Shown one piece after another: positions 42,850 through 60,165 of a stretch of 64,000 bases of DNA. Origin of the DNA: Halobacteroides halobius DSM 5150 (GTDB lineage Bacteria > Bacillota > Halanaerobiia > Halobacteroidales > Halobacteroidaceae); assembly GCF_000328625.1 (NCBI RefSeq), contig NC_019978.1, forward strand, positions 1,426,001 to 1,490,000, given 5' to 3'. How positions within the stretch are numbered: the stretch's first letter is position 1; every line of letters starts with the position of its first letter. A program made the translations under genes and the position numbers. Under the pieces are notes generated by a model. That model worked only from the letters and a program-made list of their open reading frames with translations, searched no databases and was not told the origin of the DNA.

Positions 42850-43404
42850 GTAGAGTCGAAGCTGGTGCTTTAATTTAGATTGACATTTATTTAGATTAAA
42901 TTCCCAAACTCCGCCTCTGCAAACCGTACGCTTCTCCCGTAAACGGCTTTCCTATTAACTTCATCTTAAATCCTATAAGTATTTACATCTTAAATTTAAG
43001 ATGTATTCTCCTTCTCAAGTCTTGTAAATTAATGGATGCTTTTATCATTTCACCCTTACCTGCTGTATTGTTGGAGAGATTATTAAATAGTAGGGTTCCT
43101 TTGCTATATGAAGTTATATTTACTTCATAATCTTAGCTACTACAAACCCGTCCGCCACCCTCTTCTTTTCCAATTCTTCACCCAGACGTTAAAGGTTCGA
43201 CCACCAAATTTTACCCCTTTCGAAGCTAGTATGCGTTCACTGGTGTTATAGTCTGAATACTTGCTCGATATCCTAACGATATCTTTGTCAATAGACTTCA
43301 ATGCTTTGATCTCTCACCACACTGCTATTCTACTACAAGGCTTTGACTTTTACCTTGACGGGACTTGCACCCGTTGGATATGTCCAGCGAAGCTGGACAT
43401 ATCC
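42850..43404 (-). mobile_element. Group II intron, internally deleted (copy I1)
   Basis: Both ends of the 1961-bp intron are recognisable: the 3' end (from GTAGAGTCGAAGC at 42850) and the 5' part up to GACATATCC at 43404. Most of the reverse transcriptase gene is missing; only the region of its first codons remains. It has more base changes than the full copies, so it is older. It splits attC-like site A between GTT and ATCT. Confidence 0.85.
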
Positions 43405-43532
43405 AACGTCCCGCAGATTCACGACGTCCATGCTAATGCTCATTAACCTCTAATTAAAACTGCAATCTTGCATAAGTCAAACCAAACCTTCATTCATACT
43501 CATAAATGGGATGTAGCTATCTGCTGTTATCT
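43405..43532. repeat. attC-like site A
   Basis: Plus strand: AAC at 43405 and GTTATCT at 43526-43532, with arms CCGCAGAT... and ATCTGCTG pairing and CGACGTCC/GGGATGTAG continuing the stem. With the intron removed the left box is AGATAAC (AGAT at 42846-42849), the complement of GTTATCT. Confidence 0.65.
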
Positions 43533-43571
43533 GAAGTTGGACAATTCTCTATTAACTATAAATTCATGTCC

Positions 43572-44333
43572 TTAATATTGAAAAAATTCAATATTAAAAT
43601 TATCTTTCAATATTGTTGTTCCTTCTAAAGAATTAACAATTGCTTTTTTTATTAATCCAATTTTATCATAATTAAGATTAGTTTTATAAATTCCTTTTTC
43701 TTCTTCTGAATATATTAACTTTTCTTTAGATAAATCAAATAATTGATATGAAATTAATACAGAATAAAGATATTTTGTTTTAGAAGTAATATTTTTAGTT
43801 GAACCTAAATATAAATCAAAATTAAATATAGATTCTTGATATCTCGAACTAGATAATTTAATAGTTAAAAAATCAAAACAAGAAATTTTAATAAAAGATC
43901 CATAATTTTCATCTATCATAATTTCATTAAAATGATTAAAATATAAATTAGATAAATTAATAATACATAAATAATCTATTTTATATTTAGTTTGAATAAC
44001 ATTATAATCATAATTTTGTGAAGTAATTAATTCATTTTCATTACTCAAATTTAAAATTTCCATATTAGTATGTTTTTTAAAATGATTTCCTATAAATTTA
44101 AATGTTTTTTTTAATTCCTCTTTATTAAGCATATATTTATTTGTATTAAGATAACTTTTTTCTAAATTTTCATAATTAAATTTATCATCCATTTTAATAA
44201 TAATACCTAATTTTTTTCCTTTGAATTTATTCTGATTCAAATTAATATTAGAAGAATCAAATGAAAATACTACTGTACTACTGATTAATAAAAATAATAC
44301 CAAAATTAAAATGATTGCTTTTTTATTTTTCAT
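43572..44333 (-). CDS. Secreted protein of unknown function
   Basis: 253 residues with a signal peptide (KAIILILVLFLLISSTVVFSF). The rest is Asn-, Lys- and Tyr-rich with alternating beta-type segments; no motif is recognised. AGAGGTGA lies upstream of the ATG. Its upstream region contains a truncated IS3 end. It lies within the cassette array, between attC-like site A and the GrpB module. Confidence 0.65.
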   Translation of the reverse strand: MKNKKAIILILVLFLLISSTVVFSFDSSNINLNQNKFKGKKLGIIIKMDDKFNYENLEKSYLNTNKYMLNKEELKKTFKFIGNHFKKHTNMEILNLSNENELITSQNYDYNVIQTKYKIDYLCIINLSNLYFNHFNEIMIDENYGSFIKISCFDFLTIKLSSSRYQESIFNFDLYLGSTKNITSKTKYLYSVLISYQLFDLSKEKLIYSEEEKGIYKTNLNYDKIGLIKKAIVNSLEGTTILKDNFNIEFFQY

Positions 44334-44377
44334 ATTATAAACTCACCTCTGTATAATAATTTCTTCTTAATTTCTAA

Positions 44378-44450
44378 AAATCCAATTTAATTTATATTCT
44401 TTTATTATATCATGTCCGAGAAAAAACTGTATGATTAATTATAACCTATC
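44378..44450 (-). mobile_element. Remnant of the left end of the IS3-type element
   Basis: About 72 bp match, in reverse orientation, the left end and leader of the IS at 49366-50566, including ATGTCCGAGAAAAAACTG and the run up to its ribosome site. No transposase remains. Confidence 0.8.
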
Positions 44451-44584
44451 TATCCTGAGTTCTAGGGCGACTGCCCTTAGCGAAGGAATTTGGGTGGAAT
44501 GACGTTAGGAATGGAACCGGCAATATTTTGTTATATGAAGTTCCCGGCTCCCACGAATAATTTAATGATTTCTCCAGTCATCTT

Positions 44585-45178
44585 TTATGGTAGATATCTA
44601 TTAGGAAACTCTTTTCTTGCTTGCTTTGTCCATTTTTTAATAAACTCTGTTTTTGCCTCAGTATATCCATCTCTATTATGCTCATATTGTTTTTTTAATT
44701 TTTGTTTTAATTCTCCATATTTTTTCGCAACTTCTTCATGAATCATAAGGTAATCTCTAAAATATAATTCATCCCAATCTCCTAAAAATCGGACATGGAG
44801 ATGGAATACCTTTTCAGCAAATCCATTTGAAGTATATCCTTTATTAAATGACATTTTTAAATCTGGTTTCTTTTCAAACGCCATAAGTGTCCAACCTGCA
44901 TTTTCTAGCCTTAATTTTAAATTATCAATATCACTATTACAACCAACTTCTAACAGAATATCTACTGTTGGCTTTGCAATCAGTCCTTCAATTGCGCTAC
45001 TGCCAATATGATTAATTCGTTCAATCTTATTCAAACCTACTGTTTTTTCAATATTTTCTTTTTCTTTTAAATACCATTCTTTATACTCTGGATTATGTTC
45101 ACGTAAGATTATTGGGAACAATTCCCAAAGTTCTTCTAATGTCATTTCAGATAAATCTTTTCCCATAATAACCCCCAA
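44585..45178 (-). CDS. GrpB-family nucleotidyltransferase-like protein
   Basis: 197 residues, full length for the family. The nucleotidyltransferase region is RINHIGSSAIEGLIAKPTVDILLEV near residues 54-78, and LHVRFLGDWDELYFRDYL follows. GrpB-family proteins have an uncharacterised role; some are linked to CoA or stress. The module starts at box GTTATAT (44530-44536) and ends at ATAT (45247-45250) plus AAC after the intron. A second, truncated copy lies at 42392-42770. Confidence 0.87.
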   Translation of the reverse strand: MGVIMGKDLSEMTLEELWELFPIILREHNPEYKEWYLKEKENIEKTVGLNKIERINHIGSSAIEGLIAKPTVDILLEVGCNSDIDNLKLRLENAGWTLMAFEKKPDLKMSFNKGYTSNGFAEKVFHLHVRFLGDWDELYFRDYLMIHEEVAKKYGELKQKLKKQYEHNRDGYTEAKTEFIKKWTKQARKEFPNRYLP

Positions 45179-45250
45179 ATGTATTTTTTATGATAAATTC
45201 ACCGTTAACCTCCCACTTATATTATACTAGTATTACAGGGAATTTCATAT

Positions 45251-47211
45251 GTAGGGTCGAAGCTGGTGCTTTAATTTAGATTAACATTTATCTATATTAA
45301 ATTCCCAAACTCCGCCTCTGCAAACCGTGCGTACGGTTCTCCCGTACACGGCTTTCCTATTAACTTCGTCTTAAATCTCATAAGTTTTAAGCTGTACTAA
45401 CTTTCGCTATGGTTGATAATGAGCTACTTTATAATCATTAAATAAACCTACTTTATTGTACAACCAATCGCTACTCCATCTCTCCCAGCCATATCCTTGT
45501 TTTCCTCGCTGCTTCATTAGATACCTTCTTACTTTCTTTTCTACATAATCTCTGATATAAGAAAAACAATTTCTTGAATCTCCTATGGTAAAGTAATTAA
45601 TCCAACCCCTTAGTACAGAGTTTAATTCTTCTATCATACTTTCAAATATACCTGTTGTTCTATGCTTTTTAACTACTTCCCTTATTTTCTGTAGTAACTT
45701 TGTTCTCTTCTTGATTTGAGGTGTTGTCAATACTCCCCATTTTCCGCTGAAAGTCTTCCTTCTTTTTATAGTAAACCCTAAAAAATTTATTGAATCTCCT
45801 TCTTCTAAGTTCACTATCTTAGTCTTTTCTTTGTTTATCTTTACTTGTATCTTGTTAAATTCTTCTTTCAGCCTTTTCATTACTTTTGGAAGCAACCAAT
45901 TCATACTGTAATGGCTCGATACTGCTATTACAATATCATCTGCAAAGCGGGCATATTCTACCTCTGTATATCTCCCTTTACTCTTTGTCACCTCGGTTGC
46001 TCTTTCAAGCATTTTATCAACTTCATTTAAATAAAGATTAGCAAATAATGGAGAAATAACTCCACCTTGAGGTACACCTTCTTTCCCACTAGCTTTTAAT
46101 ATTAGCTTTATCAGATGCATTATATCTTTATCTATTACTCGCTTTCCCACTTTAGCTAGCAGAATATGATGTTTTACTGTATCAAAGTAATTTGATAAAT
46201 CTAAGTCTATTACTTTTCTTTTCCCCGTTATTATTGCTTTTTCTATTTTCTTTACTGCTTGATGAGCATTCCTTTTTGGGCGATATCCATAAGAACCTTC
46301 TTGAAAATCTGCTTCAAATATCGGCTCTAATATTAATTTTAAAGCTCCCTGTACTATTCTATCTTTAATAGTTGGAATTCCTAGCACTCTTACTTTCCCA
46401 TTTTCTTTTGGTATCTCTTGTTTTCGATTTATCTGTGGTTTATATGTCCTATTTACTAGTTCTTCTCTTATTTCTTTCAGATATTTTGTTACTCCTATTT
46501 CTTCAATATCTTCAAATGTCACTCTATCTATTCCTGAAGAACCAGCTTTCTCTTTTGCCATTATATATGCTTTCCTAAGTGTGTCCATTTTGCATACATG
46601 AACATACATCCCCCAGAATTTATGAGATTCTTCCTTTTTAGATTTAAGATATATTCTCCTTCTCAAGTCTTGTAAACTAATGGATGCTTTTATCATTTCA
46701 CCCTTACCTCCTGTATTGTTAGAGAAATTATTAAATAGTAGGGTTCCTTTGCTATATGAAGTTATATTTACTTCATAATCTTCGCTACTACAAACCCGTC
46801 CGCCACCCTCTTCTTTTCCAATTCATTTCCTAGGTCTTAGTTATAAAATCTTCTTTGCTCAAGTGATTTCTCACAGGAAGAAGTAGGGCTTCTCCAGTTC
46901 CAGACATATCCTTGTATCCATACTACCGCTAATACTCCGCTGGTGTATATAAATGTTTCAGTCATTTTCATTTATATATCCTGTCTTCACCCAGACGTTA
47001 AAGGTTCGACCACCAAATTTTACCCCTTTCGAAGCTAGTATGCGTTCACTGGTGTTATAGTCTGAATACTTGCTCGATATCCTAACGATATCTTTGTCAA
47101 TAGACTTCAATGTTTAGATCTCTCACCACACTGCTATCCTACTACAAGGCTTTGACTTTTACCTTGACGGGACTTTCACCCGTTGGATATGTCCAGCTTC
47201 GCTGGACATAC
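45251..47211 (-). mobile_element. Group II intron, full length 1961 bp (copy I2)
   Basis: On the minus strand it runs from GTATGTCCAGCG (5' end at 47211) to CACCAGCTTCGACCCTAC (3' end at 45251). Boundaries are fixed by the identical length of three copies and by a head-to-tail junction in copies I5-I4. Domain V lies near 45320-45353, with the AGC-containing AAAGCCGTGTACGG arm pairing with CCGTACGCACGGTTT. A domain VI hairpin follows. It encodes a reverse transcriptase and splits attC-like site B exactly between GTT and ATAT. Confidence 0.93.
45407..46696 (-). CDS. ltrA: Group II intron reverse transcriptase/maturase (copy I2)
   Basis: 429 residues. The RT palm has KVIDLDLSNYFDTV, GVPQGGVISPLFANLYLNE and the catalytic YARFADDIVIAV; GYRPKRNAHQAV is RT motif 2. 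A maturase X region (LNSVLRGWINYFTIG) follows and there is no HNH endonuclease domain. It promotes splicing and target-primed integration of its own intron. The protein is identical to the copy at 53685-54974 and differs by one residue (E for K in GYGWERW) from the copy at 51724-53013. Confidence 0.95.
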   Translation of the reverse strand: MIKASISLQDLRRRIYLKSKKEESHKFWGMYVHVCKMDTLRKAYIMAKEKAGSSGIDRVTFEDIEEIGVTKYLKEIREELVNRTYKPQINRKQEIPKENGKVRVLGIPTIKDRIVQGALKLILEPIFEADFQEGSYGYRPKRNAHQAVKKIEKAIITGKRKVIDLDLSNYFDTVKHHILLAKVGKRVIDKDIMHLIKLILKASGKEGVPQGGVISPLFANLYLNEVDKMLERATEVTKSKGRYTEVEYARFADDIVIAVSSHYSMNWLLPKVMKRLKEEFNKIQVKINKEKTKIVNLEEGDSINFLGFTIKRRKTFSGKWGVLTTPQIKKRTKLLQKIREVVKKHRTTGIFESMIEELNSVLRGWINYFTIGDSRNCFSYIRDYVEKKVRRYLMKQRGKQGYGWERWSSDWLYNKVGLFNDYKVAHYQP

Positions 47212-47341
47212 AACGTCCCGCAGCTTCGCGACGTCCCCACCAACGCACCCCAACCTCTAACTAAAATTACAACCTAACATAAGTCAGCCCCGCTTTCCAT
47301 TTATTCTCTCAAGTTGGGATGTCGCTAAGGTGCTGTTATAA
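47212..47341. repeat. attC-like site B
   Basis: AAC at 47212 and GTTATAA at 47335-47341. The arms CCGCAGCTTCGCGACGTCCC and GGGATGTCGCTAAGGTGC pair with compensated differences. Without the intron the left box is ATATAAC. Confidence 0.7.
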
Positions 47342-47405
47342 GGCGTTTTGCGTTCTCCAAACCTTACAATCTCCTACCAATCTTCAATTCCCATTTAAAT
47401 TTCTA

Positions 47406-47435
47406 TTGAATATTATGTAATACAAATGTTATAAT
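47406..47435 (+). promoter_or_regulatory. Promoter of the AbrB-Doc pair
   Basis: TTGAAT at 47406-47411 and a perfect TATAAT at 47430-47435, 18 bp apart, lie 18 bp before the AbrB start. A promoter inside a cassette is usual for toxin-antitoxin cassettes. Confidence 0.6.
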
Positions 47436-47453
47436 ATAAGTGAGGTGATAACT

Positions 47454-47678
47454 ATGCAAACTATAAAACTTCGTAAAGTTGGAAATAGTTATGGGTTTAC
47501 TATTCCTAAAGAAGTCATGGAAAAATATCATTTGAAAGAAGGAGAAGAACTCCATCTTATTGAAGAAAATGATGGTTTTACATTAACTCCTTATGACCCT
47601 GAATTTGAAGAATGGACTAAATCTTTTGAAAAAACAAATCAAAAATTCAAAAACACATTAAAGGAACTATCTAAATGA
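47454..47678 (+). CDS. AbrB/MazE-type antitoxin
   Basis: 74 residues with a swapped-hairpin DNA-binding domain, TIKLRKVGNSYGFTIPKEVM, and an acidic C-terminal tail that would bind the toxin (EEWTKSFEKTNQKFKNTL). GAGGTGATAACT precedes the ATG at 47454. It overlaps the toxin gene by 4 bp (ATGA), showing translational coupling. It is on the plus strand, opposite to most cassette genes. Confidence 0.88.
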   Translation: MQTIKLRKVGNSYGFTIPKEVMEKYHLKEGEELHLIEENDGFTLTPYDPEFEEWTKSFEKTNQKFKNTLKELSK

Positions 47679-48067
47679 AAAATGTAAATTTTATTCCTAA
47701 AAAGGTTATACTATATTTCCATGAGCAACTCATCCAAATTTATGGTGGTAGCACTGGAATAAGAGATGAAAAACTTCTTGATTCTGCTATAAAGCAACCT
47801 AAAAGCACTTTTGAAGGTAACTACTTGCATGATAGTATTTTCAAAATGGCATCAGCCTATGGATTTCACTTATGCAAAAATCATCCATTCATAGATGGCA
47901 ATAAACGGGTTGCCCTTGTTGCTATGGATACATTCCTTCAAAATAACGGATATGAAATAACTGCCTCTGAAAAAGAAACTTATAAAATAATGATAAAACT
48001 ATCATCTGAAAATCTTTCAAAAGATGAATTAACAAAATGGATAGTGCAAAATACTATCTCTATCTAA
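47675..48067 (+). CDS. doc: Doc-type Fic toxin (death on curing)
   Basis: 130 residues with the Fic motif HPFIDGNKRVALVAMDTFL near residue 70. Doc-type proteins phosphorylate elongation factor Tu and halt translation unless bound by antitoxin. GSTGIRDEKLLDSAIKQP is the usual N-terminal Doc signature. The frame is intact. A toxin-antitoxin pair in a cassette array stabilises the array by making its loss harmful. Confidence 0.92.
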   Translation: MKNVNFIPKKVILYFHEQLIQIYGGSTGIRDEKLLDSAIKQPKSTFEGNYLHDSIFKMASAYGFHLCKNHPFIDGNKRVALVAMDTFLQNNGYEITASEKETYKIMIKLSSENLSKDELTKWIVQNTISI

Positions 48068-48306
48068 CTTCTTGGTAATTTAATTTCTCTATCGAGAAGT
48101 TTTCTCATATTTCTCATAAGAATTAAATTCAAATTATTAGATTATACAGATGATAATTTAGTTTAACGATAAATGTAAAATATCCAAAACTAATTATTGT
48201 CTAAGAAATTCAAGAAGATATCATTTTACAGCATCTATCTCTCAGAACTATGAGTTTCTTTATTTTTAATCAAACCACAAAACTTCCATTTAGCAAAATG
48301 TCTTAT

Positions 48307-48851
48307 GTAGGGTCGAAGCTGGTGCTTTAATTTAGATTAACATTTATCTATATTAAATTCCCAAACTCCGCCTCTGCAAACCGTGCGTACGGTTCTCCCG
48401 GTACACGGCTTCCTATTAACTTCGTCTTAAATCTCATAAGTTTTAAGCTGTACTAACTTTCGCTATGGTTGATAATGAGCTACTTTATAATCATTAAATA
48501 AACCTACTTTATCGTACAACCAATCGCTACTCCATCTCTTCCAGACATATCCTTGTATTCATACCATCGCTAATACTCCGCTGGTGTATATAAATGCATC
48601 AGTCAATTTTATTTATATATTCTGTCTTCGCCCAGACGTTAAAGGCTCGACCACCAAATTTAGCCCTTTCGAAGCTACTATGCGTTCACTGGTGTTATGG
48701 TCTGAATACTTGCTCGATATCCTATAGATACCTTTGTCAATAGACTCCAATGCTTCGATCTCCCTCCACATTGCTATTCTGCTACAAGGCTTTGACTTTT
48801 ACCTTGACGGGACTTTCACCCGTTGGATATGTCCAGCTTCGCTGGACATAC
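48307..48851 (-). mobile_element. Group II intron, ORF-deleted (copy I3)
   Basis: 545 bp retain both intron ends. The deletion joins two places that in the full copies share CCAGNCATATCCTTGT, one near the reverse transcriptase end and one upstream of its start. It therefore arose by recombination between short direct repeats. It splits attC-like site C between GTT and ATAA. Confidence 0.9.
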
Positions 48852-48978
48852 AACGTCCCGCAGCTTCGCGACGTCCTCACCAACACTCTAACCTCTAATT
48901 AAAATTACAACCTCACATAATCAGTCCCAATCTTCATTTATACTCCCACACTGGGATGTCGCTAAGCTGCTGTTAGGT
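48852..48978. repeat. attC-like site C
   Basis: AAC at 48852 and GTTAGGT at 48972-48978. Arms CCGCAGCTTCGCGACGTCC and GGGATGTCGCTAAGCTGC pair. Without the intron the left box is TTATAAC (TTAT at 48303-48306). Confidence 0.72.
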
Positions 48979-49442
48979 GACGTACCCGTTTTAATACAAT
49001 AGCAATTCCACTTTAAATTTCTATAATCTAATAACACTAATTCCCTCTTTTATATATTCATTTTAAAAATATTTGCAAATTCCAAGATTAAATCTCCACC
49101 CACTCATATCAATTTCCAAACCATATGCATCCTCAAACTCTATTTGATCAATCTCTATATCTAAAAACCTATATTTTACTCCGGTCTTTAAATAACTATC
49201 ATTATTAAAAGGAATATTAATCTGACTACCAAGTAGATAACCTATTCCTTCTCCTCCATGTATTTGTGTTGATTGACGACTATAACTTTCTAGTGAAAAG
49301 TAACTTTTCATAAATTCGTATGAATACTTACCTAATCCAGCATTTAATTCTATTAAATCATAGATAGGTTATAATTAATCATACAGTTTTTTCTCGGACA
49401 TGATATAATAAAAGAATATAAATTAAATTGGGGGAGAATATC

Positions 49443-49715
49443 ATGGCCAAACGTTATAATGATGAATTTAAAAAGAAAATTGTTAACCTTGCTAATAACG
49501 GTAAAAAGATAAGTGATATTATTAATGAATATGGTATTGCAAGATCTACTGTCCATAAATGGAAAAAAGACTTTAATAATTCTGGTTCTTTTAAAGCTAA
49601 AGATAATAGAACTGATGAAGAAAAAGAACTATTAAAATTACGTAAAGAAATTAAACAACTTAAGATGGAGAATGATATTTTAAAGCAAGCAGCGCTGATA
49701 CTAGGACAAAAGTAG
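49443..49715 (+). CDS. IS3-family transposase OrfA
   Basis: 90 residues from the ATG at 49443 (GGGGGAGAATATC upstream). The helix-turn-helix is KRYNDEFKKKIVNLANNGKK followed by EYGIARSTVHKWKKDF, then a leucine-zipper-like end (ELLKLRKEIKQLKMENDIL). It ends at a run of A before TAG, where a -1 frameshift would fuse it to OrfB. Confidence 0.92.
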   Translation: MAKRYNDEFKKKIVNLANNGKKISDIINEYGIARSTVHKWKKDFNNSGSFKAKDNRTDEEKELLKLRKEIKQLKMENDILKQAALILGQK

Positions 49716-49756
49716 CTGTTGTTAAGGCAAATAAAGAGAAATACAGTATTAGCGCA

Positions 49757-50554
49757 ATGTGCAAGGTGCTTAATATTTCAAGAAGTTCTGTTTATTACGA
49801 ACCCAAGAAAAAGTCTTGTAATACCGAACTTGAAAATCTAATAATAACTATCTTTAAAAATAGTAGAAATAATTATGGGACTAGAAAAATCAAAAATAGA
49901 CTAGATAAAAAAGGTTATAAAGTATCTCGAAGACGAATATCTAAAATTATGAAAAAGTATGGTCTAGTCTCCAATTATACTGTTAAGCAGTATAAAGTTC
50001 ATTCTCCAAAATGTAATGAAGAAAAAATAGATAATATTGTTGATAGAGATTTCAATAAAAAGCAGGCCTTAGATGTTGTAGTTAGTGATTTAACCTATGT
50101 TAATGTTAATGGCAAATGGAATTATATATGCCTAATAATAGACCTGTTTAACCGTGAATTTATAGGTTGTGCTGCTGGTAAAAAGAAAGATGCTGAATTA
50201 GTAACTAAAGCCTTTTATAGTATTAAGAGACCAATTGATGAGATAAACATCTTGCATACTGACAGGGGTAATGAGTTTAAAAATAAAGCAATAGATCAGA
50301 TTTTAAGTACATTCGATATTGAACGATCTTTAAGTAAAAAAGGTTGTCCTTATGACAATGCAGTAGCAGAAGCCGCCTTTAAAGTAGTTAAAACTGAATT
50401 TGTATTTAATAGAAAATTTAACAGTTTTGAAGAATTAGAATATGAGCTCTTTGATTATGTTAACTGGTATAATAACCACCGAATTCACGGGTCACTTGAT
50501 TATCTTACACCTGTTGAATATAGGTATTTAATGTCCGAGAAAAAAGTGGCCTAA
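49757..50554 (+). CDS. IS3-family transposase OrfB (integrase core)
   Basis: 265 residues from the first ATG; the frame is open further upstream (VAVVKANKEKYSIS) and is probably made by -1 frameshifting at CAAAAG near 49706-49712. The DDE core is visible: Asp in VVSDLTYVNVNGKWNYICLI, Asp in ILHTDRGNEF and Glu in AVAEAAFKVVKTEF (DDE with 35-residue spacing). IS150-like by sequence style. Confidence 0.92.
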   Translation: MCKVLNISRSSVYYEPKKKSCNTELENLIITIFKNSRNNYGTRKIKNRLDKKGYKVSRRRISKIMKKYGLVSNYTVKQYKVHSPKCNEEKIDNIVDRDFNKKQALDVVVSDLTYVNVNGKWNYICLIIDLFNREFIGCAAGKKKDAELVTKAFYSIKRPIDEINILHTDRGNEFKNKAIDQILSTFDIERSLSKKGCPYDNAVAEAAFKVVKTEFVFNRKFNSFEELEYELFDYVNWYNNHRIHGSLDYLTPVEYRYLMSEKKVA

Positions 50555-51063
50555 AAAGTGTTGACAATCCATCATCGAAAAAACCTAATGTAACTTCCCC
50601 ATAAGGAGCAAATAAACTAACTTTTAAATCATCCTTTTCACTAGCTATATATTCAATACCTCCATTAATTCCTACTCGATCAGTAAACTTATATTTTACT
50701 CCACCATAAAAACCTACACCTCTTTGTAACTCTTCTTTATGTTTTGTCCATTTTAATCCATGTAATGTCATGGTAGTGTCAAAAGTATTCTGTGTAACAC
50801 CAGCAAACCACTTAAATCCTGTATTAGAATTATTAAATGATGTTTCTTCTTTTTCAGAAACATTTTGATCTTGTTGTTTTGGTTCTTTTTCATTCTCCTT
50901 TGAAGAATCATAAATTGATTTATTTTCTATAGTTGAATCAAAATACTTATTTAAATCTATTTTTTCTTCTGCCTCAATTTTAATATTTATTCCACATATT
51001 AAACTAAAAACGATTAAAATTATACTAAATGATAAATTTATTCTTTTCATTTTTATACTCCTT

Positions 51064-51471
51064 TTAATCAGAATAATTAATTTTAGTTATCTTATCCTTA
51101 TTTACATGAATCTTAGTTTCAATATAATCAGGATAATAATCTCCTTCAACTGGAATACTAATTTGAACCTCATAATCTCCTTCTTTCAATCTGCTTATTT
51201 TAAAATATCCTATTTGGTTTGAATAAGTTAATGTTGGTTCATAACTATAATCTCTTGCTTTAATCTTAGCAAAAACTGGAACTAAACTTGCATCATTTCT
51301 TCTTTCTCCACTTACTATATAGTCAATATAATTATCCTCATTTAAATCTCTATAAATATATCCTTCTATCCCTCCATTCTCTGTAGCATTATTAGAATCA
51401 CTACATCCAACCAAGAAGAAAACTAATATTAACAAAATAATAAATTTCCAATTTAGTCTTCTGCTAAACAT
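51064..51471 (-). CDS. Small lipoprotein with a carboxypeptidase-regulatory-like domain
   Basis: 135 residues. The lipobox is FFLVGC after a short signal peptide. The mature part has one Ig-like fold domain, GGIEGYIYRDLNEDNYIDYI leading to GYFKISRLKEGDYEVQISIP. It probably sits at the cell envelope together with the interrupted beta-barrel-like protein, whose gene follows by 13 bp. Function unknown. Confidence 0.75.
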   Translation of the reverse strand: MFSRRLNWKFIILLILVFFLVGCSDSNNATENGGIEGYIYRDLNEDNYIDYIVSGERRNDASLVPVFAKIKARDYSYEPTLTYSNQIGYFKISRLKEGDYEVQISIPVEGDYYPDYIETKIHVNKDKITKINYSD

Positions 51472-51567
51472 TCATCTTTCACCTACCTAAATTTAATATT
51501 ATATCGCTCTATTTTTTCATTATACTAATTACTCTTTATTAATTGATATTAACTTGGTATGTCACCT

Positions 51568-53528
51568 GTAGGGTCGAAGCTAGTGCTTTAATTTAGATTA
51601 ACATTTATCTATATTAAATTCCCAAACTCCGCCTCTGCAAACCGTGCGTACGGTTCTCCCGTACACGGCTTTCCTATTAACTTCGTCTTAAATCTCATAA
51701 GTTTTAAGCTGTACTAACTTTCGCTATGGTTGATAATGAGCTACTTTATAATCATTAAATAAACCTACTTTATTGTACAACCAATCGCTACTCCATCTCT
51801 TCCAGCCATATCCTTGTTTTCCTCGCTGCTTCATTAGATACCTTCTTACTTTCTTTTCTACATAATCTCTGATATAAGAAAAACAATTTCTTGAATCTCC
51901 TATGGTAAAGTAATTAATCCAACCCCTTAGTACAGAGTTTAATTCTTCTATCATACTTTCAAATATACCTGTTGTTCTATGCTTTTTAACTACTTCCCTT
52001 ATTTTCTGTAGTAACTTTGTTCTCTTCTTGATTTGAGGTGTTGTCAATACTCCCCATTTTCCGCTGAAAGTCTTCCTTCTTTTTATAGTAAACCCTAAAA
52101 AATTTATTGAATCTCCTTCTTCTAAGTTCACTATCTTAGTCTTTTCTTTGTTTATCTTTACTTGTATCTTGTTAAATTCTTCTTTCAGCCTTTTCATTAC
52201 TTTTGGAAGCAACCAATTCATACTGTAATGGCTCGATACTGCTATTACAATATCATCTGCAAAGCGGGCATATTCTACCTCTGTATATCTCCCTTTACTC
52301 TTTGTCACCTCGGTTGCTCTTTCAAGCATTTTATCAACTTCATTTAAATAAAGATTAGCAAATAATGGAGAAATAACTCCACCTTGAGGTACACCTTCTT
52401 TCCCACTAGCTTTTAATATTAGCTTTATCAGATGCATTATATCTTTATCTATTACTCGCTTTCCCACTTTAGCTAGCAGAATATGATGTTTTACTGTATC
52501 AAAGTAATTTGATAAATCTAAGTCTATTACTTTTCTTTTCCCCGTTATTATTGCTTTTTCTATTTTCTTTACTGCTTGATGAGCATTCCTTTTTGGGCGA
52601 TATCCATAAGAACCTTCTTGAAAATCTGCTTCAAATATCGGCTCTAATATTAATTTTAAAGCTCCCTGTACTATTCTATCTTTAATAGTTGGAATTCCTA
52701 GCACTCTTACTTTCCCATTTTCTTTTGGTATCTCTTGTTTTCGATTTATCTGTGGTTTATATGTCCTATTTACTAGTTCTTCTCTTATTTCTTTCAGATA
52801 TTTTGTTACTCCTATTTCTTCAATATCTTCAAATGTCACTCTATCTATTCCTGAAGAACCAGCTTTCTCTTTTGCCATTATATATGCTTTCCTAAGTGTG
52901 TCCATTTTGCATACATGAACATACATCCCCCAGAATTTATGAGATTCTTCCTTTTTAGATTTAAGATATATTCTCCTTCTCAAGTCTTGTAAACTAATGG
53001 ATGCTTTTATCATTTCACCCTTACCTCCTGTATTGTTAGAGAAATTATTAAATAGTAGGGTTCCTTTGCTATATGAAGTTATATTTACTTCATAATCTTC
53101 GCTACTACAAACCCGTCCGCCACCCTCTTCTTTTCCAATTCATTTCCTAGGTCTTAGTTATAAAATCTTCTTTGCTCAAGTGATTTCTCACAGGAAGAAG
53201 TAGGGCTTCTCCAGTTCCAGACATATCCTTGTATCCATACTACCGCTAATACTCCGCTGGTGTATATAAATGTTTCAGTCATTTTCATTTATATATCCTG
53301 TCTTCACCCAGACGTTAAAGGTTCGACCACCAAATTTTACCCCTTTCGAAGCTAGTATGCGTTCACTGGTGTTATAGTCTGAATACTTGCTCGATATCCT
53401 AACGATATCTTTGTCAATAGACTTCAATGTTTAGATCTCTCACCACACTGCTATCCTACTACAAGGCTTTGACTTTTACCTTGACGGGACTTTCACCCGT
53501 TGGATATGTCCAGCTTCGCTGGACATAC
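51568..53528 (-). mobile_element. Group II intron, full length 1961 bp (copy I4, tandem)
   Basis: Same ends and length as copies I2 and I5. Its 5' end (GTATG at 53528) directly abuts the 3' end of copy I5 with no base between. Its 3' flank is ACCT (51564-51567), the RRRY side of attC-like site D. Confidence 0.95.
51724..53013 (-). CDS. ltrA: Group II intron reverse transcriptase/maturase (copy I4)
   Basis: 429 residues, identical to the copies at 45407 and 53685 except Lys for Glu in GYGWKRWSSDW near residue 407. All RT motifs (FADD, PQGGVISPL) and the X region are intact, so it is probably functional. Confidence 0.95.
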   Translation of the reverse strand: MIKASISLQDLRRRIYLKSKKEESHKFWGMYVHVCKMDTLRKAYIMAKEKAGSSGIDRVTFEDIEEIGVTKYLKEIREELVNRTYKPQINRKQEIPKENGKVRVLGIPTIKDRIVQGALKLILEPIFEADFQEGSYGYRPKRNAHQAVKKIEKAIITGKRKVIDLDLSNYFDTVKHHILLAKVGKRVIDKDIMHLIKLILKASGKEGVPQGGVISPLFANLYLNEVDKMLERATEVTKSKGRYTEVEYARFADDIVIAVSSHYSMNWLLPKVMKRLKEEFNKIQVKINKEKTKIVNLEEGDSINFLGFTIKRRKTFSGKWGVLTTPQIKKRTKLLQKIREVVKKHRTTGIFESMIEELNSVLRGWINYFTIGDSRNCFSYIRDYVEKKVRRYLMKQRGKQGYGWKRWSSDWLYNKVGLFNDYKVAHYQP

Positions 53529-55489
53529 GTAGGGTCGAAGCTGGTGCTTTAATTTAGATTAACATTTATCTATATTAAATTCCCAAACTCCGCCTCTGCA
53601 AACCGTGCGTACGGTTCTCCCGTACACGGCTTTCCTATTAACTTCGTCTTAAATCTCATAAGTTTTAAGCTGTACTAACTTTCGCTATGGTTGATAATGA
53701 GCTACTTTATAATCATTAAATAAACCTACTTTATTGTACAACCAATCGCTACTCCATCTCTCCCAGCCATATCCTTGTTTTCCTCGCTGCTTCATTAGAT
53801 ACCTTCTTACTTTCTTTTCTACATAATCTCTGATATAAGAAAAACAATTTCTTGAATCTCCTATGGTAAAGTAATTAATCCAACCCCTTAGTACAGAGTT
53901 TAATTCTTCTATCATACTTTCAAATATACCTGTTGTTCTATGCTTTTTAACTACTTCCCTTATTTTCTGTAGTAACTTTGTTCTCTTCTTGATTTGAGGT
54001 GTTGTCAATACTCCCCATTTTCCGCTGAAAGTCTTCCTTCTTTTTATAGTAAACCCTAAAAAATTTATTGAATCTCCTTCTTCTAAGTTCACTATCTTAG
54101 TCTTTTCTTTGTTTATCTTTACTTGTATCTTGTTAAATTCTTCTTTCAGCCTTTTCATTACTTTTGGAAGCAACCAATTCATACTGTAATGGCTCGATAC
54201 TGCTATTACAATATCATCTGCAAAGCGGGCATATTCTACCTCTGTATATCTCCCTTTACTCTTTGTCACCTCGGTTGCTCTTTCAAGCATTTTATCAACT
54301 TCATTTAAATAAAGATTAGCAAATAATGGAGAAATAACTCCACCTTGAGGTACACCTTCTTTCCCACTAGCTTTTAATATTAGCTTTATCAGATGCATTA
54401 TATCTTTATCTATTACTCGCTTTCCCACTTTAGCTAGCAGAATATGATGTTTTACTGTATCAAAGTAATTTGATAAATCTAAGTCTATTACTTTTCTTTT
54501 CCCCGTTATTATTGCTTTTTCTATTTTCTTTACTGCTTGATGAGCATTCCTTTTTGGGCGATATCCATAAGAACCTTCTTGAAAATCTGCTTCAAATATC
54601 GGCTCTAATATTAATTTTAAAGCTCCCTGTACTATTCTATCTTTAATAGTTGGAATTCCTAGCACTCTTACTTTCCCATTTTCTTTTGGTATCTCTTGTT
54701 TTCGATTTATCTGTGGTTTATATGTCCTATTTACTAGTTCTTCTCTTATTTCTTTCAGATATTTTGTTACTCCTATTTCTTCAATATCTTCAAATGTCAC
54801 TCTATCTATTCCTGAAGAACCAGCTTTCTCTTTTGCCATTATATATGCTTTCCTAAGTGTGTCCATTTTGCATACATGAACATACATCCCCCAGAATTTA
54901 TGAGATTCTTCCTTTTTAGATTTAAGATATATTCTCCTTCTCAAGTCTTGTAAACTAATGGATGCTTTTATCATTTCACCCTTACCTCCTGTATTGTTAG
55001 AGAAATTATTAAATAGTAGGGTTCCTTTGCTATATGAAGTTATATTTACTTCATAATCTTCGCTACTACAAACCCGTCCGCCACCCTCTTCTTTTCCAAT
55101 TCATTTCCTAGGTCTTAGTTATAAAATCTTCTTTGCTCAAGTGATTTCTCACAGGAAGAAGTAGGGCTTCTCCAGTTCCAGACATATCCTTGTATCCATA
55201 CTACCGCTAATACTCCGCTGGTGTATATAAATGTTTCAGTCATTTTCATTTATATATCCTGTCTTCACCCAGACGTTAAAGGTTCGACCACCAAATTTTA
55301 CCCCTTTCGAAGCTAGTATGCGTTCACTGGTGTTATAGTCTGAATACTTGCTCGATATCCTAACGATATCTTTGTCAATAGACTTCAATGTTTAGATCTC
55401 TCACCACACTGCTATCCTACTACAAGGCTTTGACTTTTACCTTGACGGGACTTTCACCCGTTGGATATGTCCAGCTTCGCTGGACATAC
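53529..55489 (-). mobile_element. Group II intron, full length 1961 bp (copy I5, tandem)
   Basis: Runs on the minus strand from GTATG at 55489 to CCCTAC at 53529. Its 5' exon is GGGACGTT of attC-like site D. Its 3' neighbour is copy I4, not an exon, so two introns share one target site. Confidence 0.95.
53685..54974 (-). CDS. ltrA: Group II intron reverse transcriptase/maturase (copy I5)
   Basis: 429 residues with the same RT core (GVPQGGVISPLFANLYLNE, YARFADDIV) and X region as the copy at 45407-46696, to which it is identical in sequence. Begins MIKASISLQDLRRRIYLKSK. Confidence 0.95.
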   Translation of the reverse strand: MIKASISLQDLRRRIYLKSKKEESHKFWGMYVHVCKMDTLRKAYIMAKEKAGSSGIDRVTFEDIEEIGVTKYLKEIREELVNRTYKPQINRKQEIPKENGKVRVLGIPTIKDRIVQGALKLILEPIFEADFQEGSYGYRPKRNAHQAVKKIEKAIITGKRKVIDLDLSNYFDTVKHHILLAKVGKRVIDKDIMHLIKLILKASGKEGVPQGGVISPLFANLYLNEVDKMLERATEVTKSKGRYTEVEYARFADDIVIAVSSHYSMNWLLPKVMKRLKEEFNKIQVKINKEKTKIVNLEEGDSINFLGFTIKRRKTFSGKWGVLTTPQIKKRTKLLQKIREVVKKHRTTGIFESMIEELNSVLRGWINYFTIGDSRNCFSYIRDYVEKKVRRYLMKQRGKQGYGWERWSSDWLYNKVGLFNDYKVAHYQP

Positions 55490-55624
55490 AACGTCCCTGG
55501 GATTCGCGACGTCTGAGCTTACTTTCGATACAACTAATCTTCTCCTTTAAAACAATATCCTACTGATATAAGTCATCGCGGTCGATATTTCCACAGCTCA
55601 GATGTCGTTAAGCCCATGTTAGGC
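55490..55624. repeat. attC-like site D
   Basis: The best-preserved site. AAC at 55490 and GTTAGGC at 55618-55624. Arms TGGGATTCGCGACGTCTGAG (from 55498) and CTCAGATGTCGTTAAGCCCA pair over 20 or more positions with a few mismatches. Without the two introns the left box is ACCTAAC, a perfect RYYYAAC, and the whole site would be 139 bp. Confidence 0.78.
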
Positions 55625-55662
55625 GACGGACACGTCTTTAAAACGGATCAGCTTCGTTTCAA

Positions 55663-56291
55663 CTATAATCTCAGCATATTATAAATTTTTTCTGAAATTC
55701 TTTCCTCTATTGAATCTAATTTGCTTAATAAATGACTTGCAATTAAAACCATCTCAAAAGCTTCTTTAAATTCTAATTCTACTTTTCTATGACTATGTGG
55801 GTTTTTATATAATCCTATTGCTCCGGAAAAAAAGTGAGATATAGCTTCTTGTTCTGCTTTTGGTAAATCAAAATTTTGTAGCGGACCACTATCAACATTA
55901 AAAGCTTCTCTAATCAAAGCTACTCCTATTTTATCTTGCGGAAAATTTCCAATCTCTCTAACTCTTATTTCAACAAGCTTAAAAGCCTCAAATACAGCAT
56001 TGTCGTACTTCCCGATTTTCATACTTGGCCAAGCTTCTTCAGTTATACTTTGGTGAAACAATAATTCCGGAACCAATGTCCATTCCCCAATTAATTCCTG
56101 AAAATGATCTTCGCGAAATTGCACCCCTTTTTGGGTAGGGTAATATACTTTTTCACCATCCTCAAAACCTCTTTGAAATATTCTTATATCAATAAAAGTA
56201 TATGGATTATCCTGATCCGTACACGTTCATAATTCCTTCTTTCTGATTCAGCAATAACTTCATTTTTTATTATATTATCATCTTTCCCCAT
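55663..56291 (-). pseudogene. PC4-like plus TIGR02391-domain gene with a frameshift
   Basis: The ATG at 56291 follows AGGAGGAAAAATT. The N-terminus (SERRNYERVRIR) looks like a PC4/p15-type single-strand DNA-binding start, continued in another frame by DNPYTFIDIRIF and YYPTQKGVQF (PTxKGV motif). The change of frame is near 56217, probably a one-base loss. The C-terminal 153 residues hold the TIGR02391-type domain (ALIREAFNVDSGPLQ, FFSGAIGLYKNPHSHR). It lies in the first cassette next to a nuclease-like gene, so a defence link is possible but unproven. Confidence 0.65.
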
Positions 56292-57119: not shown

Positions 57120-57856
57120 TTAATCCATTAATTTATCTAATGGACTTTCAATTTTACCAATACTTCGTTTGCTCACATGAGTATAGATTTCGGTTGTTCG
57201 TGAACTTTTATGACCAAGCAACTCCTGAATATAACGCAAATCAGTTCCTCTCTCTAACAAATGTGTAGCAAATGAATGTCTTAAAGAATGAACTGAGACA
57301 TCCTTAGTAATTTTAGCTTTGCAACAAGCTTTCTTAAAGATTCGTTGTACACTTCTTCTAGTCAAATGTGAATTTGGCTTTCCTCCTGGAAATAACCAGC
57401 CTGTTGGCTTGTATAATTTATAGTATTTACGTAATTGCTTAAGTCCACCTTTAGAAAGTATTGTATCTCTATCTTTTCTTCCTTTCCCTTGTCGAATTCT
57501 AATTAACATTCTATCACTATCAATATCTTCAATTTTTAATCTAACTACTTCACCTACTCTCAATCCAGCTGAATAAACAAGATATAAACTGAAATATTAT
57601 CTTTATTTAATATTTCATTAATCACAAATTTAATTGCGTTAATTGCTTGATTAACAAAGGAATGAGATAATCCTCTCTCCTCTAATAAATATAATAAATA
57701 TTTATTTACTTTCTTATTAGTAATTCGATCTAAGTTATTATCAAAAAACCGAATAAAACTTTTTACATGACTTAAATATACTGCTATCGTTTTTGGACTA
57801 TATCCTTTTAATTTTAACTGTCTTTCTACTTCCTCAATTGTGAAATTATCAGACAT
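57120..57856 (-). pseudogene. Tyrosine recombinase, broken by internal deletion and frameshift
   Basis: The N-terminal core-binding part (57856-57560, ERQLKLKGYSPKTIAVYLSH) and the catalytic part (57563-57120) are in different frames. Joining at VYSAGLRVGE shows that about 50-65 residues normally between INEIL and YSAGLR are missing. Catalytic residues remain: Arg in GLRVGEVVRL, Lys in QGKGRKDRDT, HSLRHSFATHLL, LLGHKSS and Tyr in TEIYTHVS. The end SPLDKL is shared with integron integrases and related Xer-like proteins, but the IntI-specific insertion is not seen. Probably inactive. Confidence 0.8.
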
Positions 57857-58069
57857 AAATTGGCTCCTTTCTTAAATAGATCTATAATTTGTATAACCAA
57901 TTTATGTATTGAATATGTAATATGGCATAATCTTTCCAATATAATATCTTATTTAATTGTTAAATGCAAATACTATAAGGTTTTCATTGAAAATAATACT
58001 AAATTAAGTAAGTAAATAAAACTTACAAAAGTCTATCTAAAATAAGATGATTAGAAAAACAAAAATAAA

Positions 58070-60165
58070 GTAGGACCAGCCTCACGGCTGGGACCTCTTG
58101 TCAAACTGCACGTACGGTTCTCCCGTATACAGCTTTCGGTCATTGTTGCTCCTTAACAGAGAGTAAGTTATCGTCTTTGTGTTGCCACAAATGTATATTT
58201 TACTCTTGTCTAAAGCACATCGGTAAGCAGTGATTCTAGTCCTAAATCTCTTAATATTTTATTAGGAAGGCGATAATTCTGCCCTTTCGCCTTCTTTCCT
58301 TCTATAAAACAACGTAATCTCATTCTTATCCAACCATCTAACCTTTTATATAGTCCTTTAACATTTCCTAGTAGAAAACTATTACCCCAACCTCTAATAA
58401 TTAAATTAAGCTCATCAATCATTACAGCTACTCCTATTGACCTATTCCTTTTAGTTTTCTTTCTTACTTTGTCCTTGAAACTTTTAATAGAGCTCTCTTT
58501 TGGCTTTTTGTAATCACAATTATAAAATTTAAATTCTAGAAATTTAAATCCATCATTAAAATTCGTAATTACTGTTTTCCGAGGATGTAGTCTTAAGTTT
58601 AATTCATTTTCTATAATCTGGCGAGTTACTTCCAAAGCACGTTCTGCTTTAGCTTTACTCTTAGCCATAATTATAAAGTCATCGGCAAATCTAACTATCT
58701 TATATCCTCGACACCTCATTTTCTTATCAAAATGATGTAGGTAGATATTTGCTAAAAGTGGAGAAATTACGCCTCCTTGTGGAGTTCCCTCCGTTGTTTC
58801 TTCTCTTCCTTGCTCAGTCATGACACCTATAGTAAGCCACGACCTAATAATATCTAATACCCAACCATCACTTACTTCCTCTGCTATCAGCTCCATTAAA
58901 ATTTCATGATCTATTGTATCAAAGTAAGATTTGACATCTGCGTCTAATACCCAATTATAACCTTGTTCTTTATATTCTTCTACTTTCTTAATTGCATCTT
59001 CGGTTGACCTATTAGGTCTAAAACCATAAGAACAGTCGCAGAATATTTCTTCAAAGTGTATCTCTAGAATCTGTTTCACTGCTTGTTGGGCAATTCGGTC
59101 TTTAATTACTGGAATACCTAGTGGTCTTTGTTCTCCATTTCCTTTTGAGATATACGTTCTTAGAACTGGTTGTGGCTCATATCTATCTTCTGTTAACTGG
59201 CGATATAAAGCACTCATATTCTTAGTGTAATTTTCTCTAAATTCTTCAACTTCTACACCGTCAATCCCTCCACAACCACCATTATTCAAAACTTTCTGAG
59301 CTGCACAATGTAAATGTCTTTTCTTAGTCACTAAATCTTTTATACTATATAGCGAACTAATTTTTTTTCACCTATCCTACCTCACGACTTACCAGTTCTT
59401 CCTATCCTGTCTTAATATCTAAACCCCTATATTCGTAGCATTCCTAAGCACGTCTTCTAAGCTCTCGCCAATCGCACCTCTTAGTTTACTACTACTTAGG
59501 TCATGGTTTTTCTTAAATTCATCACGCTTCCAGTTATGATTTTCTGTCCGCTATTTCTTTTAAGACTTATTGTCTTTAACAATGTTTAAACCATTTTGAT
59601 TTAAATACCATCAACACTCAATTCTAAACTTCAATAACCTGGCTATCCTTCACTGTAATCAACTTTCATTGATTTTTTTTCACTACTATGATAGCTTCTG
59701 AACTCTAATATTTCATCGCTTTGACTTTCCCTATTCAGGTTATATCATCACTTATCTTTATAGATTTCTATAAAGACCATATTAGAGCATCCTCTGGTCA
59801 CCTATGCTATATTCCAATCATTCCGACCATAATCACACTCATTAATCTAACATACTCCAATGGTCTGTAAGTCAGCTTTGGACTTCTCCATCCTTTTGGT
59901 AGATCGTCACTAATGAATGCCACCTTCAGTTCACATATTGTTCCGGACTGATTTTTCGCCTCAAACTCTTCAGATTACATCTCACGATGAACACCCTGTT
60001 ACTGTTGGCTTCATATCCTGTTCTTTATTAACTTAGGTTGACGTTTGTTTTCTCCGTTTGCTCACCCATTTCGTCTGTGAGTGCCACAATATCTCAACCA
60101 TATTATCCATTCTTCCAGAATAGGCAGGACTTACACCTACTATCAGCATAGACTACAGAGCACAC
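58070..60165 (-). mobile_element. Group II intron, GTGTG type, 2096 bp (copy I7)
   Basis: The minus strand starts GTGTGC at 60165, immediately after the T-run of the gltD terminator, and ends GGTCCTAC at 58070. Domain V is near 58109-58140 (AAAGCTGTATACGG pairing with CCGTACGTGCAGTTT) and a domain VI hairpin follows (CCAGCC/GGCTGG). Target choice after a terminator hairpin is the class C hallmark. It is a different lineage from the 1961-bp introns. The 830 bp at 59332-60165 are intron RNA domains without a gene. Confidence 0.9.
58210..59331 (-). CDS. ltrA: Group II intron reverse transcriptase (copy I7), N-terminus uncertain
   Basis: 373 residues from a GTG at 59331. Motifs: GFRPNRSTEDAIKKV, WVLDADVKSYFDTID, GTPQGGVISPLLANIYL and the catalytic RFADDFIIMA, then a maturase region (LIIRGWGNSFLLG). 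No endonuclease domain. Family members start further upstream: the frame continues as ISSLYSIKDLVTKKRHL but meets TGA at a run of eight A (59360-59367). With seven A a GTG with ribosome site would be in frame, so a one-base slip may have clipped the true start. Confidence 0.88.
   Translation of the reverse strand: MTKKRHLHCAAQKVLNNGGCGGIDGVEVEEFRENYTKNMSALYRQLTEDRYEPQPVLRTYISKGNGEQRPLGIPVIKDRIAQQAVKQILEIHFEEIFCDCSYGFRPNRSTEDAIKKVEEYKEQGYNWVLDADVKSYFDTIDHEILMELIAEEVSDGWVLDIIRSWLTIGVMTEQGREETTEGTPQGGVISPLLANIYLHHFDKKMRCRGYKIVRFADDFIIMAKSKAKAERALEVTRQIIENELNLRLHPRKTVITNFNDGFKFLEFKFYNCDYKKPKESSIKSFKDKVRKKTKRNRSIGVAVMIDELNLIIRGWGNSFLLGNVKGLYKRLDGWIRMRLRCFIEGKKAKGQNYRLPNKILRDLGLESLLTDVL

Follow-up and report, generated by a model that had tools for sequence, protein, structure and literature searches.

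The window that we analysed, a stretch of 64,000 nucleotides from Halobacteroides halobius DSM 5150, contains on its minus strand two full-length copies of one group II intron, I5 and I4, which lie directly next to each other at a site of the attC type. The features at this locus are as follows.

51558–51567, minus strand: 3′ exon AGGTGACATA, made up of the second half of a split R′ box and the start of the next cassette
51568–53528, minus strand: intron I4, 1961 bp, the downstream member of the tandem and probably its first occupant
51568–51673, minus strand: domains V–VI of I4 (RF00029)
51724–53013, minus strand: RT/maturase ORF of I4, 429 aa, with E405K relative to I5
53311–53316, minus strand: EBS1 of I4, identical in position and sequence to EBS1 of I5
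53528–53529, minus strand: I5/I4 junction, CGACCCTAC/GTATGTCC, with zero bases between
53529–55489, minus strand: intron I5, 1961 bp, upstream within the tandem and probably the second to insert
53529–53634, minus strand: domains V–VI of I5 (RF00029)
53685–54974, minus strand: RT/maturase ORF of I5, 429 aa (TIGR04416, 379 bits, over the cut-off; best PDB match 7uim, 184.6 bits)
55272–55277, minus strand: EBS1 of I5, AACGTC (intron positions 213–218), with 6/6 pairs to GACGTT
55481–55628, minus strand: attC-like cassette site whose body is the 5′ exon (the exon part ends in GACGTT at 55490); R1 match of 80.4 bits; the R″ box and inner arms pair
55663–56124, minus strand: cassette ORF (Hypoth_Ymh; PF09509, 96 bits), with 39 bp between its end and the R″ box

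Both I4 and I5 have a D1 (RF02003, 105.7 bits), a DV–DVI (RF00029, 42.2 bits) and an intact 429-aa RT ORF, and by these features they are group II introns. Read along the minus strand, the layout is GGGACGTT/GTATGTCC...CGACCCTAC/GTATGTCC...CGACCCTAC/AGGTGACA or, with longer flanks, CCCAGGGACGTT as the 5′ exon, then I5, I4 and the 3′ exon AGGTGACATA. When positions 53529–55489 were compared with the window by BLAST, the full-length matches were 51568–53528, 53529–55489 and 45251–47211; I4 differed from I5 by 2 mismatches in 1961 (99.9% identity), and the third copy, I2 (45251–47211), was 100% identical to I5. A match over 1961 bp by chance is impossible. These findings bear out the initial annotation, which had described two full-length introns fused head to tail with no base between them. 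It had also held that the junction fixes both intron ends exactly; indeed, the preceding base is T for copy 1 and C for copy 2, and the following base is G for copy 1 and A for copy 2, so that the ends cannot slide. One of the two differences between I5 and I4 lies at intron position 1728 (G/A) and corresponds to E405K in the RT. The other, at position 1947 (C/T), lies within domain VI; C1947T alters one base of the DVI stem and leaves the predicted fold as it was. With so few differences, the annotation's view that the event was recent is supported in a relative sense. The genome assembly is a single contig of 2,649,255 bases, and the tandem is known from this one assembly.

We assumed at first that these introns belong to group IIC, and dropped the assumption once the catalytic triad was read. 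In particular, domain V of I4 and I5 reads GAAAGCCGU, with the triad AGC, whereas group IIC is marked by a CGC triad in domain V (PMC7923331). Set against the stem-loop in place of IBS2 and the short IBS1 (3–4 bp) that also mark IIC, a stem-loop was present, exon positions −7 to −12 were variable among sites and IBS1 paired over 6 bp. The introns are not clean IIC members. The best PDB matches of the RT were IIC RTs (184.6 and 166 bits), a result to be read with the proviso that several other En-less classes, for which we know of no solved RTs, perhaps had none available for comparison.

Further intron copies, and a recombinase gene, lie on the same strand of the window.

42850–43404, minus strand: intron I1, a derivative that has no ORF and whose 5′ hairpin is rearranged, within cassette site 43399–43536
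45251–47211, minus strand: intron I2, full-length and identical to I5, within cassette site 47203–47345
48307–48851, minus strand: intron I3, an ORF-less deletion derivative, within cassette site 48843–48982
57120–57856, minus strand: decayed IntI/Xer-like recombinase, upstream of the array and co-directional with it, with split ORFs and two in-frame TAA codons

I2 is 6 kb from I5, and a second intron cluster of the same genome lies at 992–999 kb of the contig. The rearranged 5′ end of I1 (window 43372–43408) is a perfect 17-bp palindrome, CGTTGGATATGTCCAGC/GCTGGACATATCCAACG, and is perhaps a repair product. An IS3-like transposase pair, recognised by eye from ORF translations at window 49428–50554, interrupts a cassette gene; the parts of this outer-membrane-like ORF lie at 50505–51050 and 49063–49311.

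The 5′ exons of I1, I2, I3 and I5, together with copies in related genomes, proved to be one ~140-bp element in which a box, ...TAAC, comes first, two inner arms then enclose a variable middle, and GGGACGTT/A follows. Its inner helix was 93.9% paired as judged by pair counts, six of the pairs having changed at both of their bases, and the whole-structure covariation of the site was 0.207 versus at most 0.065 for slid versions. RNAalifold returned only a short local hairpin for the site, and the long pairing was tested instead by the pair counts. The attC sites of integrons are marked by extrahelical bases on their bottom strand; in the present site the spacer is asymmetric (1 nt versus 5 nt) and there are mismatches, and the L box has no lone bulged base. 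The 3′ exon of the tandem, AGGTGACATA, is complementary to GTCACCTAAC, the R″ box of the following site.

In an integron, the first bases of a cassette are the final ones of the site before it, and the cassette closes with the first box of the site that follows; these two ends match because both form one site in the excised circle. A covariance model built for the site (R1) detected it in all 13 genomes of the order, with counts per genome between 1 and at least 78, and, at the stricter threshold applied class-wide, in 28 of the 59 genomes of the class. In site-rich genomes the sites form co-directional arrays with a spacing of ~1–2 kb. The relatives that carry such arrays are halophiles, and many of their arrays are extensive and unbroken. 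Among neighbouring pairs in relatives, the 7 bases after the GTT of one site were complementary to the box of the next at a mean of 6.45 of 7 positions, with 36 of 62 perfect, whereas the control comparison within a site gave a mean of 4.84 of 7 and 1 of 62 perfect. The summed score of 400 compared with a shuffled mean of 284 and a shuffled maximum of 311, and none of 5000 shuffles reached it. The longest ORF lay on the strand of the site in 59 of 64 cassettes. Within the window the same relation held from I5 to I3, I3 to I2 and I2 to I1 at 7, 6 and 6 of 8 positions, respectively. What these loci contain is what marks an integron: arrays of attC-type palindromes, and gene cassettes with matching ends. 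We note that the arrays of G006, G010, G011 and G012 (L080–L089), together with window 43399–55628, are probably of more interest than the tandem itself.

The recombinase of this genome is a pseudogene, and intact orthologues adjoin the arrays in relatives; in seven genomes the first site is preceded, at a distance of 0.9–3.3 kb and on its own strand, by a tyrosine recombinase. The insertion specific to IntI is thought to be necessary for the use of folded attC and is regarded as the hallmark of an integron integrase. Two intact relatives scored 213 and 210 bits against the integron-integrase model (cut-off 265), with profile positions 179–234 skipped, and in 0 of the 13 genomes was there a match to this model over the cut-off. 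Where the Vibrio IntI (2a3v) has 61 residues, the recombinase has 19, so that the IntI-specific insertion is missing from it; at its N terminus it carries an extension of ~80 aa, which in one case is weakly HARP-like. Judged from sequence, the arrays are integron-like by their footprint of matching cassette ends, and the recombinase is, by the defining insertion, not an IntI. The broken recombinase is adjoined by a different group II intron (window 58065–60000) with its own RT (58210–59331), the DV of which has many repeats in the genome.

Within the first 560 nt of the intron, no hexamer other than AACGTC makes 6/6 pairs with the 5′ exon GACGTT, and a loop is predicted at its position. We take it to be EBS1, an assignment supported by a relative locus with a different target (L049), where the hexamer at the same intron position, AGCGTC, has changed along with the exon, GGTGCT, and again pairs 6/6, wobble included. 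The end of I5 (CCCTAC) pairs with EBS1 at only 1/6 positions, so that insertion behind I5 would be unexpected; GACGTT in front of I4 was intact. Among the copies that could be compared here and in other genomes, I4, C2a, L053, L048 and L050x all have A at position 1728, and I2 and I5 alone have G. I5 therefore groups with I2 and not with I4 (G1728 being derived, and the A of I4 ancestral), and looks like a newcomer rather than an in-place duplicate. T1947 is private to I4 among the copies of this genome and lies 15 nt from the outer end of I4. The apparent order of arrival depends on a single shared base, a pattern that gene conversion between copies could also have produced. The first base of the 3′ exon is A at nearly all single sites and G in the tandem, both of which may be accepted if EBS3 is, hypothetically, U.

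We think it probable, with good confidence, that the tandem arose when an En-less mobile intron that targets the end of a cassette site through EBS1 was joined by a second intron, of the I2 lineage, which reverse-spliced in front of the first and gave I5–I4, at a site in a decayed chromosomal array of the integron type. According to this model, the intron would recognise the 3′ end of the cassette site by pairing of AACGTC with GACGTT and would insert at GTT/A on the coding strand. Everything that it requires on the 5′ side would still be in place after the first insertion; the old 3′ exon base A would have been replaced by the first base of the intron, G, with wobble pairing possible if EBS3 is U. 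The intact 5′ target would then have admitted the second intron, head to tail with the first, and occupied sites in the decayed array would no longer be able to form the split R box. The initial annotation had suggested that a second intron re-entered the same hairpin site in front of the first. Re-entry is indeed what EBS1 and base 1728 support best, and the part to be corrected is the hairpin, which is the ~140-bp attC-like cassette site split at GTT/A.

The tandem could instead have been made during repeat resolution from a site that holds a single intron. Three near-identical 1961-bp copies within 10 kb are hard to assemble, and in the draft relative G140 most intron starts lie at contig ends, yet the genome is in one contig and the two copies differ at two positions, one with an ancestral base that I4 shares with a distant copy and with other species and one private to I4; we therefore consider an assembly artefact unlikely. 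The adjacency and 99.9% identity of I5 and I4 would also fit duplication of one intron in place, by unequal recombination or replication slippage. We regard such a duplication as decidedly improbable: the duplicated unit would have to be exactly one intron without any exon base, and I5 equals the distant I2, not I4, at both variable positions, so that gene conversion would have to be added. Head-to-tail intron circles, which are known for Ll.LtrB (PMC6248898), raise the further possibility that an already joined RNA, circular or tandem, reverse-spliced in one event. From one RNA two identical copies would be expected, and although later mutation could explain why I4 differs from I5, we give this route very little credence.

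The EBS1 pairing also bears on how the introns would leave the RNA. While I5 is present, the sequence available to the 5′ end of I4 as IBS1 makes 1/6 pairs, versus 6/6 for that of I5. Since I4 is without a matching IBS1 before I5 leaves, ordered splicing is predicted and not free alternative splicing. I5 would leave first and re-create GACGTT/GTATG for I4, and the order expected from the sequence is thus I5 then I4; alternatively, both could be removed together, through the 5′ splice site of I5 and the 3′ splice site of I4. As the exon is a recombination site that lies between genes, splicing probably has little consequence for them.

The closest known systems are the group IIC-attC introns (PMC7923331), which are likewise En-less group II introns located in the R-box core of attC-type palindromes; their target includes the stem-loop upstream, and their 3′ exon is little conserved. 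However, IIC-attC introns use the bottom strand, at TTGT/T, in the orientation opposite to that of the cassettes (PMC7923331), whereas those described here are at ACGTT/A on the strand of the cassette ORFs, and they differ further in their AGC rather than CGC triad, the 6-bp EBS1–IBS1 pairing and tandem occupancy. I4 and I5 work like a IIC-attC intron and, given the AGC triad, the insertion at GTT/A and the orientation with the cassettes, are not classed as one. One IIC case with the same orientation, in Enterobacter cloacae, is reported; there it is an exception, whereas in the arrays examined here it is the usual state. The bacterial and archaeal twintrons of Trichodesmium (PMC4649490) and Methanosarcina (in PMC4424553) resemble the tandem in having one intron next to or inside another and in ordered splicing, which here is predicted. 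In a twintron one intron interrupts another; here the junction precedes base 1 of I4, so that the second intron stands exactly before the first and is not nested, and both ribozymes are uninterrupted. In C.te.I1 of Clostridium tetani (in PMC4424553), one 5′ splice site is likewise followed by several group II 3′ ends, but these belong to DV/VI repeats with coding exons between them, whereas here complete introns are separated by zero exon and no coding exon is involved. With chromosomal integrons (super-integrons) of the Vibrio type the arrays share their length and co-directionality, the ~140-bp imperfect palindromes, the complementarity of cassette ends and an adjacent tyrosine recombinase; unlike in the Vibrio type, the recombinase is without the IntI-specific insertion, carries ~80 additional aa at its N terminus and is encoded in the direction of the array.

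A scan of 398 genomes of the phylum with one exact 5′-end pattern revealed no other tandem, a scan of low power in which the denominator was 31 intron starts in 14 genomes, with many copies at contig ends; nor was the junction found in viral contigs. A generic IIC-tandem pattern applied to the genome collection gave L068 and L069, which we rejected, there being no domain V upstream and a 5′ exon that happens to end in CCTAT. The apparent heterologous tandems of G007 (L048 and L057) proved to be nested, with the other intron between bases 8 and 9 of the I-family copy. This nested twintron occurs in at least two places (L057:4359-6743 and L048:7763-9899), and its inserted member is a different group II intron with a 488-aa RT (RF02012). 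The open-access literature yielded nothing direct on bacterial group II introns in tandem, nor any paper on integrons in Halanaerobiia-type bacteria; integrons are listed for Firmicutes in general (PMC8618304).

All four cassette sites in the window hold introns, and in G002 introns occupy 4 of 7 sites, with another insertion in a fifth. In the sampled arrays of G006, G010, G011 and G012, 0 of 68 sites had an insertion after GTT. Within this small sample, these counts suggest that introns may accumulate where cassettes no longer move, or may lock the cassettes. On balance, we lean towards the view that the hosts of the arrays, which we take to be Halanaerobiia-type bacteria, have a separate branch of chromosomal integrons, with tens of cassettes, ~140-bp palindromes and a tyrosine recombinase able to act in the absence of the IntI-specific insertion, and with a dedicated sense-strand group II intron lineage that can stack head to tail and locks cassettes wherever the recombinase is defunct. 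Stacking at one site is possible for an intron whose target stays usable after insertion, and the tandem would be a clean natural case of this. Class-wide integron-like arrays whose recombinase is without the hallmark part let one ask how much of IntI cassette movement needs, and the presence of introns in sense-strand sites next to a dead recombinase suggests that they are able to freeze an integron.

Two further observations were made at loci of relatives. At L049:6791 and 7231 an I-family intron sits at a hairpin target that is not a cassette site, with a ~440-bp stretch repeated and EBS1 changed with the exon. The cassette sites L052:1426 and L052:3920 are both followed by the same AGTACGCCAAGCAAGT sequence, and this sequence precedes RF02005-type introns by ~230 bp.
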